Below, piece by piece: positions 10,344-60,389 of a stretch of DNA of 64,000 nucleotides. The stretch spans positions 1,310,501 through 1,374,500 of the forward strand of contig NZ_CM001240.1 of the NCBI RefSeq assembly GCF_000230835.1. The letters run 5' to 3'. Source of the DNA: Clostridium sp. DL-VIII. GTDB lineage: Bacteria; Bacillota; Clostridia; Clostridiales; Clostridiaceae. Position 1 is the stretch's first letter. Every line of letters starts with the position of its first letter. The notes under the pieces were generated by a model that worked only from the letters and a program-made list of their open reading frames with translations, was not told where the DNA came from and did no database searches. Made by a program: the position numbers and the translations under genes.

Positions 10344-12128
10344 ATGGATATTAAACAAAAAGTTTTTTATGCTTTAAAGAAATATTATGGTTTTGACAGC
10401 CTAAGAAAAGGCCAATTTGAAATCATAAATAGCATTTTGAGTGGTAAGGATACTTTTTGTCTTATGCCAACCGGAGGCGGGAAATCTATTTGTTATCAAA
10501 TACCAGCAATAATTATGCAGGGCGTAACTATAGTAATATCTCCTTTGATTTCACTTATGAAAGATCAGGTGGATAATCTGCTTGGGGTTGGAATAAAGGC
10601 AGCATATATAAACAGTACTCAAAATATGGATACAATAAAAAATATATTAATTGAAGCATCAATGGGAGAATATAAAATACTTTATATTTCACCAGAAAGG
10701 CTTGAATCTAAAATTTTCCGAGATATGATTAAAGACCTTCATATTTGCCAGATTTCAATAGATGAAGCACATTGCGTATCTCAGTGGGGACATGATTTTA
10801 GAAAGAGCTATTTGGAAATTTCACGATTTTATAGCAGTCTTAAAAATAAACCTGTAATTTCAGCTTTTACTGCAACTGCAACTGAGGAAGTAAGAGAAGA
10901 TTCTATAAAACTCTTAGGATTAAATAATCCATATGTATATAAGGGCGATATTAATAGAGAAAATCTTAATATAAGTGTACTTAAAGAAATAGATAAACTG
11001 GAAACATTAAAAGATATAATACGAGAAAAAGAGGGAGAAGCAGGAATAGTCTATTGCGCATCAAGAAAGGAAGTAGACAGTTTATATTATTATTTAAAAG
11101 ATTTAGGATATAATGTAGGTAAATATCATGGTGGTCTTAAGGATGAGGAAAAAGAAAGATTTCAAGAAGAATTTTTATATGAAAATATAGATATAATAAT
11201 TGCAACCAATGCCTTTGGTATGGGGATTGATAAATCAAATATTAGATTTGTAATACACTTTACTCTTCCTCAAAATATAGAATCTTATTATCAGGAAATA
11301 GGCAGAGGAGGCAGAGATGGAGAAAGGTGTGACTGCTATTTATTTTATTGTGAGGCAGATATAAGCAGGGTAGAATACATAATAAACAAAAGTTCCTTAA
11401 TAAGTAGAAGGGAGATTCAACTTAAAAAGTTCCAAGCTTTAATTGATTATTGTATTTTTAAAGAGTGTTATAGAAAGTATATATTAAATTATTTTGGAAA
11501 TGAGCGTAAACTGAATTATTGCAATAATTGCGGCAATTGCTTAAATAATGATGAATTAAAAGACTTTACAAGAGAGAGCCAGATGATACTGGCAACAGTT
11601 TTTAGAACTAAAGAAAGATATGGAATATCAGTGCTTATAGATATTCTAAAAGGATTTAAGGGACCAAAGATAGTTCAAAATAATCTTGATAAGATAACTA
11701 CATATGGATTAATGAAGGAATATGACAGCACATTTATAAAGGATTTAATTAAGAGTCTTCTAAATGAAGGCTTTGTTGATTTAAAAGAAGGTACATATTC
11801 AATGCTGAAGTTAAATGCTAGATCAATGAAACTATTAAAAAGTCAAGAAACGGTGGTATTTAAAATTCTAGATAAAAAGGAACCTCTTTTAAATAAACAA
11901 CTTTTCGAAGCTTTAAAGAAGTGGAGAAAAGACAAAGCTTATAGAGAGCGCATAAAACCATATATAATATTTTCTGATACAAGCTTAGTTGCAATATCAA
12001 ATAGTAAACCTCAAAATTTTGATGAATTATTAGAAATTAGAGGAGTTGGTGTTAAGAAAATCGAAGCTTATGGGAAGGAAATATTAAATATAATACAGGC
12101 ATTCGGAGAGGAAGAAATGACAAAATAA
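10344..12128 (+). CDS. recQ: RecQ-family ATP-dependent DNA helicase
   Basis: This 3'-5' DNA helicase for recombination and repair has 594 residues. Walker A MPTGGGKS is at residues 41-48, the DEAH box is in IDEAHCVSQWGHDFR, and motifs IVYCASRK, ATNAFGMGIDKSNIRFVIH and QEIGRGGRDG are present. A zinc-binding Cys cluster (CIFKEC...NYCNNCGNC) and a C-terminal HRDC domain (last ~75 residues, LLEIRGVGVKKIEAYG) follow. ATG 10344 fits GAAAGG at 10328-10333 better than GTG 10326. The stop codon is the first three bases of a palindromic repeat element (12128-12288). Confidence 0.95.
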   Translation: MDIKQKVFYALKKYYGFDSLRKGQFEIINSILSGKDTFCLMPTGGGKSICYQIPAIIMQGVTIVISPLISLMKDQVDNLLGVGIKAAYINSTQNMDTIKNILIEASMGEYKILYISPERLESKIFRDMIKDLHICQISIDEAHCVSQWGHDFRKSYLEISRFYSSLKNKPVISAFTATATEEVREDSIKLLGLNNPYVYKGDINRENLNISVLKEIDKLETLKDIIREKEGEAGIVYCASRKEVDSLYYYLKDLGYNVGKYHGGLKDEEKERFQEEFLYENIDIIIATNAFGMGIDKSNIRFVIHFTLPQNIESYYQEIGRGGRDGERCDCYLFYCEADISRVEYIINKSSLISRREIQLKKFQALIDYCIFKECYRKYILNYFGNERKLNYCNNCGNCLNNDELKDFTRESQMILATVFRTKERYGISVLIDILKGFKGPKIVQNNLDKITTYGLMKEYDSTFIKDLIKSLLNEGFVDLKEGTYSMLKLNARSMKLLKSQETVVFKILDKKEPLLNKQLFEALKKWRKDKAYRERIKPYIIFSDTSLVAISNSKPQNFDELLEIRGVGVKKIEAYGKEILNIIQAFGEEEMTK

Positions 12129-12288
12129 GGCACATGAAAATAAATAACAGATCCAAGGTTGCCTTGAATATTTTTTATCAGGCAAGGAGGTGAATTTACC
12201 TCATAGCGAGTCTATTAGGCCAATTTGCCGATGCAGGATGATGGAAAATAGGCTGGCAAGTGGACTTGTTATTTATTTGATTGTGCCT
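12128..12288. repeat. Palindromic repeat family 1, copy A (starts in the recQ stop codon)
   Basis: The 161-bp element has imperfect inverted ends. The left end begins AGGCACATGAAAATAAATAA; the right arm, read in reverse complement, begins AGGCACAATCAAATAAATAA and continues AACAAGTCCACTTGCCAGCC. The first A is the last base of recQ's TAA. About 40 of 46 bases of the right arm match the left arm of the copy at 46962. No protein is encoded. It could be a MITE-like element or a large terminator hairpin. Confidence 0.8.
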
Positions 12289-17128: not shown

Positions 17129-18058
17129 ATGAAAAAAGCTGTATCGAGAAGAATCATTAATGTATGTATTGCAACAGCAACAATTACTGCACTATTACCG
17201 TTTAGAGCATCTGCACAGTGGTATCAAAATTCTGATAGAACATGGAGCTATCTAGATGAAAATACTAAGGTTAAAGGATGGAAAAATGTTTCAGGAATAT
17301 GGTATTACTTAAACACAAATGGGATAATGCAAACAGGCTGGGTTTCTGATAGTGGGAATTGGTATTATTTGAATTCGGCTGGGGAAATGAAAACAGGATG
17401 GATTATGGATAACGAAAAGTGGTATTATCTAAACTATTCTGGAGTTATGCAAACGGGATGGATAAGAGATGATGGAAAATGGTATTACGCAGATAGCAAT
17501 GGAGTAATGGAAACAGGAACTGTAAATATTTCAGATAAGCTATATTGCTTTAATGAATCTGGTGAATTACAGCAAACAAAGGATTACTTAGCAGAAAGCA
17601 GTAAGATTGCAGCAGATAGTAGTGCGGTAGATGTAAGTGGCTTGCCACAATTGCCAAACAATTATTCTATAAGTGTACAAGCTTCTGCTGAAAGTCAAAT
17701 TCTTGAATTAATGAATGAGAAAAGAACAGAAGCTGGATTACAACCATTAATGCTAGATAATACATTAGTACAGATTGCCAGGTATAAAAGTGATCATATG
17801 ATACAATATAATTATTTTGACCATACTACTCCAGAAGGAAATAATTGGACAAGCTGGCTAGATGCAATAGGTTATAAGTATATGTCCACGGGTGAAAATA
17901 TAGCATATAATAATTATGATCCTGTTGAATTATTTAATCAATGGTGGAATTCACCAGAGCATAAGGCAAATATGATGAAACCTTCTTATAATAAAGTTGG
18001 AATAGGCGTTATTAACGGAAACGGAAAATGTATGGGAACACAAACATTTTCTAACTAA
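17129..18058 (+). CDS. Secreted CAP/SCP-domain protein with wall-binding repeats
   Basis: This 309-residue exported protein has a signal peptide ending near ASA/Q28. Residues about 28-140 hold five or so choline-binding-type repeats (SWYYL, GW..DSGNWYYLNSAGEMKTGW), and residues about 188-309 are a CAP domain (LMNEKRTEAGLQPL, HMIQYNYFDHTTPEG, GENIA, WWNSPEHKANMM). CAP proteins of this YkwD type are extracellular; their activity is mostly unknown. The repeats resemble those of the hydrolase at 8.6 kb, suggesting binding to the same wall polymer. Confidence 0.9.
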   Translation: MKKAVSRRIINVCIATATITALLPFRASAQWYQNSDRTWSYLDENTKVKGWKNVSGIWYYLNTNGIMQTGWVSDSGNWYYLNSAGEMKTGWIMDNEKWYYLNYSGVMQTGWIRDDGKWYYADSNGVMETGTVNISDKLYCFNESGELQQTKDYLAESSKIAADSSAVDVSGLPQLPNNYSISVQASAESQILELMNEKRTEAGLQPLMLDNTLVQIARYKSDHMIQYNYFDHTTPEGNNWTSWLDAIGYKYMSTGENIAYNNYDPVELFNQWWNSPEHKANMMKPSYNKVGIGVINGNGKCMGTQTFSN

Positions 18059-18106
18059 CAGCATACATATCCAACTTTAAGTTTAGAGGTATGAGATAAC
18101 TAACCG

Positions 18107-18296
18107 AAAGGACAGGTACTCTATTATTTCGGTTACTTAAGAGAATTAGTTGTGGATTTCTAACATCAAAAGTTGCACCATTTTAGCATGTTCCCAAGAC
18201 AAGCTTGTGACAAGCAAAAATGGAACAACTTCTGATGAAGAAATACCTACAACAAATTCTCTAATGTAACACTGCATAAAAGAGTACCTGTCCTTT
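18107..18296. repeat. 190-bp palindromic element (family 2, copy A) with conserved ACAAG apical loop
   Basis: Outer arms 18107-18122 and 18281-18296 pair perfectly over 16 bp. Nested imperfect arms continue to a 41-nt core (18186-18226) beginning GCATGTTCC. Inside the core, CAAG-ACAAG-CTTG forms a hairpin. The copy at 35521-35710 has the same length and core but different arm sequences that still pair. I see no coding capacity. Confidence 0.8.
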
Positions 18297-18388
18297 CTGG
18301 TATGGTATATATTTTAACTTATAAGTCCATTTCTTAAGATATATCTATATAGATAATATTTAGCTTATGTAGATTATGAAGAATTATA

Positions 18389-34765: not shown

Positions 34766-35413
34766 ATGAGATTTTTTTTAGACACAGCAAATGTAGAACA
34801 TATAAAAGAAGCAAATGAAATGGGAGTAATAAGTGGAGTAACAACAAATCCATCACTAATAGCAAAAGAAGGAAGAGATTTCAATGAAGTAATAAAGGAA
34901 ATCACAGAAATAGTAGATGGACCAATAAGCGGAGAAGTAGTAAGCGAGGATGCAGCAGGAATGATAAAAGAAGGAAGAGAAATAGCTGCAATCCATAAAA
35001 ATATGATAGTAAAAATACCAATGACAGCAGAAGGACTTAAAGCAACAAAGGTATTAGCAAGAGAAGGAATCAAAACAAATGTAACATTAATATTTTCAGC
35101 TACACAAGCCTTACTTGCAGCAAATGCAGGAGCAACATATGTAAGCCCATTCCTAGGAAGAGTAGATGATATATCAATGATAGGAATGGATTTAGTTAGA
35201 GATATAGCAGAAATATTTGCAGTACATGGAATAGAAACAGAAATAATAGCAGCAAGTGTAAGAAATCCAATTCATGTAATAGAAGCAGCAAAGTCAGGAG
35301 CAGATATAGCAACAGTACCTTATAACTTAGTAATGCAGATGATAAAACATCCTTTAACAGATCAAGGACTTGAAAAGTTTAAGGCAGACTGGGCAGCAGC
35401 GTTTAACAGTTAA
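34766..35413 (+). CDS. Transaldolase / fructose-6-phosphate aldolase family (TalC-like)
   Basis: This 215-residue protein belongs to the short transaldolase family: [33 protein letters not shown], the Schiff-base Lys in VKIPMTAEG, and [20 protein letters not shown]. In the pentose phosphate pathway it moves dihydroxyacetone units between sugar phosphates; some members act as fructose-6-phosphate aldolases, and sequence alone does not separate them well. Codon usage here is strikingly A-rich (for example runs of ATA/GCA/GGA), suggesting high expression. It is followed by a hairpin, a 190-bp element and tkt. Confidence 0.92.
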
Positions 35414-35443: not shown

Positions 35444-35520
35444 TTGAAAATATAAATTCTTATATTCTTAAGAATATATAGACAAATAACTTTGAACTTA
35501 GATTTATGTGGTAACTTACC

Positions 35521-35710
35521 GAAATCAAATACATTTTTATTCCACAGGACTTATGAAATTTTTGCTGGAAAGTTCTAAATGCAAGCTCGCATCCATTTCT
35601 GCATGTTCCCGAAACAAGTTCGTGACAAGCAATAAATGGAACGAGCTCCCATTAAGAACTTTCAGCAGCTCAATTTCAAATGCATGCTTCATAAAAATGT
35701 ATATGATTTC
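35521..35710. repeat. 190-bp palindromic element (family 2, copy B) with conserved ACAAG apical loop
   Basis: Outer arms 35521-35540 and 35691-35710 match over 19 of 20 positions. The core 35601-35642 starts GCATGTTCC, as in copy A at 18186. The apical hairpin is CGAA-ACAAG-TTCG here against CAAG-ACAAG-CTTG in copy A; the next stem is AGCTCG/CGAGCT here against AAGTTG/CAACTT there. The loop stays fixed while stems change on both sides. A 77-codon open frame across it is not a gene. Confidence 0.85.
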
Positions 35711-36053
35711 TAGTATAGATGCACACAGAAGTTTAGCTTAAATAGATAATTATTCTATATATAAGTCAAGTTTATAATTTGTTTATTTATAAGAATATAA
35801 GAATATAAGAATTTACAAATAAAGCACAATAAAAACAGTTAAGAAGTTAAATTTAAAACAATAAATCAAGTTAAAATAAAAGAACTTAAAAAGAAAGCAA
35901 TTAATAAAGTTAATAATTAAACACTTTAAATATAAAAACATAAAAGAATTTAACTTAAAAAACAATATAACAATAAAACAATATAAAAAGTTATAGTAAT
36001 AATGAGGCTTAAGCCGTAATATTAGAAATTTTAAAAGTGAAATGAGGAGAAAA
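35711..36053 (+). other. AT-rich region before tkt without a gene
   Basis: Very AT-rich sequence with many loose AAGTTAA/TAAAGTTAA-like units (about 35790-35990), and the tkt ribosome site TGAGGAGA at 36043-36050. No gene, tRNA or AraR box seen. Confidence 0.6.
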
Positions 36054-45885: not shown

Positions 45886-46962
45886 ATGAAAAGGTTTAAA
45901 AAATTATTACCAATCGTTATGTCAGTAGTTATGGTGGCTGCCACAATGGCAGGCTGTGGATCAAGCAGTAATTCAGGAAGTGCTGGAGGAGATAAGAAAT
46001 CAGACTCTAAATCTTCAGATGTTTTAATTGGTTCAGCTATATATAAATTTGATGATACTTTTATGACAGGCGTTCGTACAGCTATGGAAGCTCAAGCTAA
46101 GGATAAGGGTGCAACTATTGAGTTAGTGGATTCTCAAAATAAGCAGCCTACACAAAACGAACAAGTAGATACCTTTATTACAAAAGGTGTAAACGCTTTA
46201 GCAATAAATCCGGTTGATAGTACATCTGCAGGCCCAATTATTGAAAAAGCAAAGGCTAAGAATCTTCCAATAGTATTTTTAAATCGTCAACCATCAGATG
46301 CTGATATGAAGACTTATGATAAAGCATGGTATGTAGGTGCACATGCAGAACAATCTGGAACCATGTCAGGTGAATTAATAGCTGACTATTTCAAGGCACA
46401 TCCAGAAGCTGATAAAAATAAGGATGGAGTAGTGCAATATGTAATGCTACAAGGAGAACCAGGACATCAAGATGCAACTCTTCGTACACAATATTCTGTA
46501 AAGGCTATAGAAGATGCTGGACTTAAAACAGAAAAGCTTGCTGCAGATACAGCAATGTGGGATAAAGCAAAAGCAACTGACCTTATGAAAGCATTTATTA
46601 CAGGACAAGGTATTGATAAAATAGAAGCAGTTCTTTGTAACAATGATGATATGGCTCTTGGTGCAATAGAAGCGTTAAAGGCAGAAGGATATAATAAAGG
46701 AGATGCTAGCAAGTATATTCCAGTAGTTGGAGTAGATGCAACAGCACCAGCATTACAAGCTATGAAGGAAGGTTCTCTTCTTGGAACAGTATTAAATGAT
46801 GCAGCAAACCAAGGTAAAGCAACTGTAAACATTGCTTTAGCAGCTGCTCAAGGTAAAGAAATCAATAAAGATAACATTGGTTATGATGTAACAGATGGAA
46901 AATATATATGGATAAACTATGTAAAGGTTACTCAAGACAATTATAAAGATTATATGAAATAA
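45886..46962 (+). CDS. mglB: Galactose/glucose ABC transporter substrate-binding lipoprotein MglB
   Basis: This 358-residue lipoprotein has lipobox MAGC (Cys23). Sugar-contact residues of E. coli MglB are kept: the Asp of YKFDDTFM, Asn of FLNRQP, His/Asp/Arg of GHQDATLRT, Trp of AMWDKA, Asn of NNDDMA, Asp of GVDAT and Asn of VLNDA. The EF-hand-like Ca2+ loop DKNKDGVVQ is also present. The ligand is therefore likely galactose, glucose or methylgalactoside. Its stop codon overlaps a palindromic repeat that separates it from mglA. Confidence 0.95.
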   Translation: MKRFKKLLPIVMSVVMVAATMAGCGSSSNSGSAGGDKKSDSKSSDVLIGSAIYKFDDTFMTGVRTAMEAQAKDKGATIELVDSQNKQPTQNEQVDTFITKGVNALAINPVDSTSAGPIIEKAKAKNLPIVFLNRQPSDADMKTYDKAWYVGAHAEQSGTMSGELIADYFKAHPEADKNKDGVVQYVMLQGEPGHQDATLRTQYSVKAIEDAGLKTEKLAADTAMWDKAKATDLMKAFITGQGIDKIEAVLCNNDDMALGAIEALKAEGYNKGDASKYIPVVGVDATAPALQAMKEGSLLGTVLNDAANQGKATVNIALAAAQGKEINKDNIGYDVTDGKYIWINYVKVTQDNYKDYMK

Positions 46963-47121
46963 GGCACAATCAAAAAAATAACAAGTCCATTTGTCAGCAT
47001 ATTTTATATCATGCTGTAGCGGCAAATCGACCTGATAGTCCCACTGTGATGGCAATTTATCTTCTTGCCTGATGAAAATACTCATGATAACTTTGGACTT
47101 GTTATTTATCTTCATGTGCCT
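46962..47121. repeat. Palindromic repeat family 1, copy B (starts in the mglB stop codon)
   Basis: This 160-bp element begins AGGCACAATCAAAAAAATAA then CAAGTCCATTTGTCAGC and ends TGGACTTGTTATTTATCTTC then ATGTGCCT, so the ends are inverted repeats. The first base is the last A of mglB's TAA. It is followed directly by a second, unrelated palindrome. Confidence 0.85.
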
Positions 47122-60154: not shown

Positions 60155-60389
60155 TAAGTAATTTTAACCTAGATTTTACTTATAATACGCATATTTCTTC
60201 ATTATTTAGATTTAGTTTTTATAAAATTATTCGATAACATAATTATTGAATATATAGATATATAACTTAGAAATTTGATTTGTATATAAAATAATTATCT
60301 ATTCTTATTAAATTTTTGTGATTTCGGTAAGCTACCACATAAGTTAAGTTCAAAGCTTGATATCTATAACAAATATTGGAGGGATATAT

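Follow-up and report, generated by a model that had tools for sequence, protein, structure and literature searches.

A possibly mobile, MITE-like palindrome behind the stop codons of unrelated genes in Clostridium sp. DL-VIII and its relatives

Some features of the repeat that we here call element A were already known from other small repeats of bacteria. MITE-like repeats with TA at their ends, an orientation effect of ERIC, and bcr elements lying in UTRs have been described (PMC2229807, PMC3446304, PMC2267715; here and below, our statements extend to the relevant passages of these papers). The RUP and Correia/NEMIS MITEs have terminal inverted repeats and TA at their ends, as has A, and RUP is thought to be mobilised by IS630-Spn1 (PMC2229807). 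ERIC, or RU-1, resembles A in being a short MITE-like repeat behind genes, and its orientation is crucial for its effect on the mRNA (PMC2229807); yet it is enterobacterial and, with the 127 bp given in a table of PMC2267715, shorter than A and set apart by description.

The elements bcr1-bcr3 of the Bacillus cereus group also resemble A: they are chromosomal, intergenic and multicopy, are called MITE-like and often reside in UTRs (PMC3446304). They belong, however, to another genus, and bcr1 has only about half the length of A (table in PMC2267715). The strict placement of the left end towards a stop codon and the long covarying arms do not appear in the bcr descriptions of PMC3446304, which sets A apart at the level of description. 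REP sequences, like A, are palindromes discussed as mRNA stabilisers, but they measure 20-40 bp only (PMC3733652). Clop-1 of C. perfringens and Clot-1 and Clot-3 of C. tetani are clostridial stem-loop repeats and, like A, mainly intergenic; with 74-93 bp (PMC2267715) they differ from A in length.

A description of the A family itself was not found in the literature; our coverage of subscription journals was thin, and the absence is unproven. A is best filed as an apparently undescribed family of a known kind, i.e., as MITE-like, with an unusually strict placement at gene 3' ends and on one strand.

Anatomy, number and neighbours of the repeat

The window, as we call the whole stretch of DNA analysed, comprises 64,000 nucleotides of Clostridium sp. 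DL-VIII. It contains two hairpins, at 18107-18296 and 35521-35710, precisely where an earlier note, made from the sequence alone, had located two copies of a structured element of 190 bp. The end-to-end palindromic folding that it had proposed is borne out by -88.4 and -70.5 kcal/mol for the two hairpins; the fold z scores are -13.2 and -9.4, respectively, and equally stable shuffles were not seen among 200. The shared core and the stems CAAG/CTTG and CGAA/TTCG also match the earlier description. The length of 190 bp, in contrast, is not that of the element. Each hairpin is the centre of a longer unit with imperfect terminal inverted repeats, and the conserved unit extends over about 290-315 bp, as judged from a conservation profile and a listing of the ends. 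The features of the window are the following:

17129..18058, plus strand: gene for a CAP-domain protein with choline-binding repeats (Pfam CAP, Choline_bind), its stop abutting copy 1
18059..18349, plus strand: copy 1 of A, approximate full extent (conservation profile, end listing)
18101..18302, plus strand: long hairpin of copy 1, enclosing 18107-18296 (inverted repeat 18101-18127/18276-18302, fold)
18186..18226, plus strand: conserved core of copy 1, GCATGTTCC-stem-ACAAG-stem-TGACAAGCA..AATGGAAC (pattern, covariance model)
34766..35413, plus strand: gene of the fructose-6-phosphate aldolase/transaldolase family (TIGR00875), upstream of copy 2
35477..35791, plus strand: copy 2 of A, approximate full extent, TATAGACAAATAAC...TTTGTTTATTTATA (conservation profile, end listing)
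35521..35710, plus strand: long hairpin of copy 2 (inverted repeats I2 and I20, fold)
35601..35642, plus strand: conserved core of copy 2, with one additional base ahead of AATGGAAC (covariance model)
60253..60368, minus strand: hairpin-less relative of A, locus L274 (terminal-repeat match G000:1370845-1370868, window letters)
12128-12288 and 46962-47121: two copies of element C, some 160 bp each, in which the ends AGGCACA../..TGTGCCT enclose a variable central part

Copy 1 runs from just past the stop of the gene at 17129-18058 to a right terminal repeat ATATCTATA; its ends are approximate. In the family as a whole, the left end resembles TATAGATATCCAACTTTAAACTTATGTGGTAACTTACCGAAAT and the right one TTGGATATCTATA or TTTGTTTATCTATA. 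The terminal inverted repeats, TATAGATATCCAA / TTGGATATCTATA, are of the kind by which bacterial MITEs are recognised, and they are imperfect in many copies. The core pattern practically never arises by chance (mean 0.00 matches in 100 shuffles), and the covariance model finds the two cores at G000:1328655-1328760 with 117 bits and at G000:1346070-1346177 with 106.4 bits, G000 being the window's own genome. The loop, which had been taken as invariant, reads ACAAG in 39 of 149 copies and GCAAG in 34, while the remaining 76 have another loop or one that the script did not recognise. As to the outer arms, their pairing is as claimed and their sequence varies by subfamily.

With up to 3 mismatches allowed, the left terminal repeat is found at 39 places. 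Eighteen of these loci lie away from the listed A copies and were inspected by eye over 445 bases. Several of them (among these L265, L270, L277 and the relative at 60253-60368, where both terminal repeats are present and most of the hairpin is gone) have both ends and no hairpin; others are truncated or different inside. From their letters, the hairpin-less forms look as if the hairpin had been deleted between short repeats.

That there are just two copies proved wrong. A covariance model built from 13 core copies detects at least 65 distinct places in the 6.48-Mb own genome (101 rows at E<=10, of which 36 are opposite-strand rows of places already counted). The search of Clostridium genomes that the earlier note had recommended yields dozens of copies per A-rich genome, with covarying arms. 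Matches were obtained in 11 of the 59 genomes sampled first, all of them of the same genus, and in none of the 23 genomes outside it. Among 68 same-genus genomes, surveyed with stricter filters than the first sample, 16 had 25-57 matches, three had one weak match each and 49 had none. These counts for the relatives are rows that may include opposite-strand doubles, and 57-150 candidates were scored per genome, so that copy numbers are uncertain both ways. Clostridium chromiireducens DSM 23318 contains an exact-pattern copy. Two of the three genomes with a single weak match (G032, G067, G023) have a size of 6.1 Mb, and other genomes of the genus of about 6.1 Mb reach 50 or more rows; the three are candidates for viewing sites without A.

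The earlier statement that the element cannot be assigned to a known RNA family still stands: none of the 4227 Rfam families matched the window or six further loci over its gathering cut-off. At E<=5, four loci gave three matches. Two of these, the only ones on an A copy, were hits of mir-3613 (27.2 and 21.7 bits versus a cut-off of 91), and a microRNA hairpin so far below the cut-off is taken as chance. A group II intron was dismissed, as none of the Rfam models exceeded its cut-off in the window, and so was carriage by a plasmid or phage, copy 2 being unmatched in plasmid and phage collections at the sensitivity of blastn.

Other small repeats were noticed as well. Repeat B (71-82 bp, AGAGGAAACTCGACTCAC..CTTAA) stands at the same point of the right arm in 13 of the 65 own copies, e.g., in L087 (5673626), L090 (3881093) and L073 (3993498). 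In eight of the 13, the nearest relative of the A copy is free of B, and the presence of B in A may reflect either recurrent site-specific insertion or arm exchange. B is also seen in the left arm of A (c1389514), in an A-like apex (L116), inside element C (L131) and as a tandem array at G000:C1:2401564-2401795, with a spacing of 68 bp and four units matched by pattern. Two different A copies, L156 (G008) and L163 (G030), have a related small repeat (CTCACAGAGAAAGTTCG..TCTCACTTTT) within or next to their apical loop; L140 has a similar one by itself. Element C has 71 matches to one of its ends in the own genome; both of its window copies start at the stop of the preceding gene (recQ and an MglB-like gene, respectively), which is not the rule over 30 loci. 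Past the right end of A, a further shared stretch (..AATTTAAGACTTTAACATATACATTGGCGTAAGAACTATAAATTAAAAGAC and variants) is found at c3881093, c1178225, c5956921 and c2027560 of G000; it opens with a similar TATAGATA end.

Position behind stop codons and the genes concerned

Along with the copy number and the terminal repeats, the earlier note had missed where A is located. Of 149 copies from nine genomes, 131 closely follow a gene of like orientation, whose stop codon is within 170 bp of the start of the core model (58 of 65 own copies, 73 of 84 in relatives). A converging stop is equally near on the right in 24 of 149 copies (7 of 65 and 17 of 84). For intergenic points of the window that are drawn at random, together with a strand, the frequency of a co-oriented stop this near is 0.327, which yields a binomial p of about 1e-44 if the copies are treated as independent. 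The nearest co-oriented open frame of at least 70 codons was considered in the own genome and of at least 60 codons in the relatives. The 84 copies of the relatives are the best-scoring listed places plus fetched loci and hence non-random; they do not include L049, L050 or any second hit in a locus. From the stop to the base of the hairpin the median is 39 nt (120 of the 131 copies, in which the script recognised the base), and in 5 of 32 own copies with a repeat recognised by script the stop codon lies inside the terminal repeat, at a constant offset. By script, none of the 65 own cores is within an ORF. A is multicopy, dispersed and extragenic, as is typical of bacterial MITEs. Its orientation agrees with the direction of the gene in 58 of 65 copies versus 46 of 65 for the direction of replication, the origin being assumed at 0.

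Proximity to a stop could be a general habit of small repeats in this genome. Element C, used as a control, contradicts this: 11 of 30 copies are near a stop at the tested end and 14 of 30 at either end, which is close to the random level. At the left-repeat loci away from the listed A copies, in contrast, the distance between the repeat and a co-oriented stop is at most 170 bp in 14 of 18 cases and at most 80 bp in 13 of 18. Two causes of the one-directional placement are conceivable: the element may choose its target, or copies may survive and be selected in 3' UTRs. Since left-repeat loci keep to stops and element C does not, target choice is favoured, if weakly.

The genes in front of A are ordinary. 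In the 30 of 58 that were scanned we met a dihydrodipicolinate synthase family protein, an aldehyde dehydrogenase, an alanine racemase, GGDEF and chemotaxis proteins and others, and saw no common function. PADLOC, applied to five host proteins, matched one radical-SAM protein to viperin models. Comparison of 132 host proteins, many of which are in the relatives fragments cut by the limits of the loci, revealed 10 cross-genome homologous pairs at 66% identity or more, as compared to about 1-3 expected by chance (hand estimate), and in addition a pair formed by two CAP-domain paralogues of G000. Only in one of these 11 pairs (G008/G034, 95% identical) does the A copy of the partner rank first; in the other 10 it ranks 29th-146th of 148, which means that a given gene is followed by different subfamilies of A from one species to another. 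The two proteins end at the same residue in all 11 pairs, so truncation of the host gene by A is not seen there.

A further case is the fructose-6-phosphate aldolase/transaldolase gene. A follows it in G000 (one of two close paralogues), G008 (three), G034 (three) and G030 (one), and in G027 it follows a homologue of 35% identity. The paralogue without A, at G000:906051, is 99% identical to the gene at 34766-35413. Either such sites attract A repeatedly or resident copies are replaced by others. In G021 the same spot is occupied by a B-like repeat. Per genome there are several near-identical versions of this gene (L134 and L145 in G000; L135, L146 and L156 in G008), a number of which are followed by a transketolase-like start, and the spacer behind it gathers A, B-like repeats and simple repeats of the AAGAATAT type.

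The fold and the strand that may carry it

From two copies, the earlier note had deduced a selected structure, as judged from compensatory change around a fixed loop, in RNA or single-stranded DNA. The compensatory change is confirmed far above both controls, the fixed loop is not, and the molecule concerned may be DNA or an RNA of the minus strand. In the covariation test that had been called for, both partners vary in 25 of 29 core pairs, with 457 such cells, a result obtained in none of 500 shuffles. Paired cells amount to 95.6% of 2836 (98 distinct rows), as opposed to 79.7% after shuffling and at most 41.4% with the partners slid; this alignment was fitted to the covariance model and is therefore biased to structure. 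A sequence-only MAFFT alignment of 133 of the 149 copies, B-containing ones and those of odd length being excluded, comprises 81 consensus pairs, 58 of them with at least two Watson-Crick types; in a core-only alignment the same holds for 26 of 38 pairs. In this respect, A behaves like a structured RNA.

The way in which the arms diverge is informative. Below 5% distance, 34 single-arm changes face 2 double changes; the double changes accumulate with distance, switch between Watson-Crick pairs and are as numerous as the single-arm changes in distant copies. An A.A mismatch at columns 81/157 is retained in 105 of 122 aligned copies. Being kept between covarying neighbour pairs, it argues for a fold under selection rather than for plain copying of one arm to the other.

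If an RNA of the plus strand were constrained, G.T should exceed A.C. In the core, 41 G.T are seen versus 105 A.C (1.1% and 2.8% of 3708 cells), whereas SAM riboswitches, analysed as a control with the same script and genomes, display 53 versus 14 (5.3% and 1.4% of 1009 cells; 28 of 30 loci, two being clipped). Alignment of each copy's own arms yields 169 G.T versus 428 A.C, and the wider alignment of 81 pairs 413 versus 387, with two column pairs contributing 104 of the 413. In the subset of pairs with 80% or more Watson-Crick cells, the ratio is 32 : 54 for A and only 4 : 3 for the SAM control, which is weak there. In the model-fitted core alignment, G.U occupies 17 of 2836 cells. The tolerance of G.U over A.C that characterises a plus-strand RNA is not found, which leaves a fold of A as plus-strand RNA without support.

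Read on the minus strand, G.U : A.C becomes 105 : 41 in the core, 428 : 169 in the self-arm alignment and 387 : 413 in the wider one. These counts are confounded by composition, since mismatch positions are generally A- and C-rich on the plus strand (A.A 580, T.T 172, the 14 B-containing copies being omitted). The minus strand also folds more deeply, by 9.2 kcal/mol on average and in 58 of 65 own copies. Two of the three mismatch counts and the fold energy thus lean to the minus strand, and the constrained form could possibly be minus-strand RNA, bottom-strand DNA or extruded DNA.

What kind of element A may be

The reading that we prefer, and hold to be about evenly balanced between right and wrong, sees in A a family of non-autonomous, MITE-like mobile palindromes that sit in one direction at gene 3' ends. 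It starts from plain observations: many copies, confined to one genus in our sample, terminal inverted repeats, extragenic cores, covarying arms with a kept internal mismatch and a one-directional placement behind the stops of unrelated genes. A would be moved in trans by an enzyme that acts on the hairpin as DNA. The moving DNA might be extruded or single-stranded, perhaps the bottom strand. It would enter, or survive only in, the short stretch past a stop codon, with its left end towards the gene; once inserted, it would join the 3' UTR of that gene, perhaps with a side effect on the mRNA. Later, the hairpin could be lost and the terminal repeats be left.

In favour of mobility, G000 contains paralogues both with and without A. 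A clean empty site or a target duplication was not found; the spacers of L134 and L145 in G000 differ beyond A. Also, the ends of A read TATA..TATA, which makes a TA duplication indistinguishable from the terminal repeat. None of the candidates for a mover could be established. Y1, the enzyme of the REP/RAYT system, has no match in G008, G021 and G034, each with at least 54 A matches; A differs from REP with its RAYT in that 3 of 9 A-rich genomes are without a Y1 match. DDE_3 (PF13358), which we take to be the IS630-type domain, is not found in 5 of the 9, unlike what the link of RUP to IS630-Spn1 would suggest; with DDE_3 present in only 4 of 9, neither it nor Y1 is supported as shared partner. 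Reverse transcriptase, which all 9 possess, was likewise detected in 10 of 16 genomes that have at most one A match. The assignment as a MITE is incomplete as regards target duplication and mover. Against the preferred reading one may further hold that the mismatches are not strand-neutral, and a minus-strand RNA would give the same excess of G.U. A bolder version of the mobile reading is that A homes to gene 3' ends: a machinery would read the context of the stop or the transcript end together with the direction of transcription, unrelated copies would arrive time and again at the same genes of several species, and a single-stranded or extruded DNA hairpin would be what moves. This we regard as possible, if somewhat doubtful.

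Selection for a function in 3' UTRs would lead to the same placement as target choice, and the hairpin on the plus strand might, in a REP- or ERIC-like manner, end, stabilise or process the mRNA of the preceding gene, selection keeping both fold and position. Orientation and proximity to the stop are as expected of such an element, and no intrinsic terminator is seen between stop and A in 53 of 58 own copies, by a script of low sensitivity that finds one behind just 9 of 44 window ORFs (before A it finds 5 in 58, after A 4 in 58). Yet on the plus strand G.T stays below A.C, in core and self-arm alignment and opposite to the SAM control, and in 58 of 65 copies this strand folds less stably than its complement. 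By script, the plus strand of the two window copies is free of terminator-like sites. Of the 18 left-repeat loci away from the listed copies, several of them hairpin-less, 14 lie near a co-oriented stop, so that the site does not depend on the hairpin. We consider this function unlikely. The deeper folding of the minus strand, its excess of G.U over A.C in the core and self-arm counts and a conserved stretch without a partner past the right arm would rather suit an RNA read from that strand, be it a small antisense RNA gene or a transcript coming from the next gene, with its fold under selection. But promoter-like sites number 0 and 1 at the window copies, against 2.9 and 2.0 expected, and the tie to the stop of the left gene is left unexplained. 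Apart from one weak minus-strand terminator-like stem inside the core of copy 1, promoter- and terminator-like sites are not above chance at the window copies. Such an RNA appears quite improbable to us.

The arms might also stay paired through copying alone, the palindrome being mobile and neutral, with replication template switching or conversion transferring one arm to the other. This would agree with the double changes leading from Watson-Crick to Watson-Crick pair and with their growth with distance, close copies having mostly single-arm changes. Arm copying should, however, erase mismatches, and the A.A mismatch is kept amid covarying neighbours; moreover, the core is conserved in sequence too, and we deem the neutral variant improbable. 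Finally, A recalls the attC sites of integrons, folded single-strand sites behind genes on which a tyrosine recombinase acts, by its location behind the stop, its fixed orientation, its imperfect palindrome with kept mismatches and its more stable bottom strand. The R'/R'' sites of attC have the box motif GTTRRRY, which is absent, by eye, from the right base consensus TGATTTCTAGTATAG of A; the copies are dispersed, their host genes ordinary, and attC-like recombination is a very remote prospect.

Small bacterial repeats are usually explained as tolerated insertions. If the mobile reading of A is true, unrelated copies at the stops of the same genes, all in one direction, would mean targeting to gene 3' ends. 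The family also offers a wealth of natural copies whose arms covary strongly without the wobble pattern of the riboswitch control, and it cautions that covariation alone does not prove an RNA function. For annotation, the A-rich genomes would hold dozens of unlisted hairpins behind their genes.
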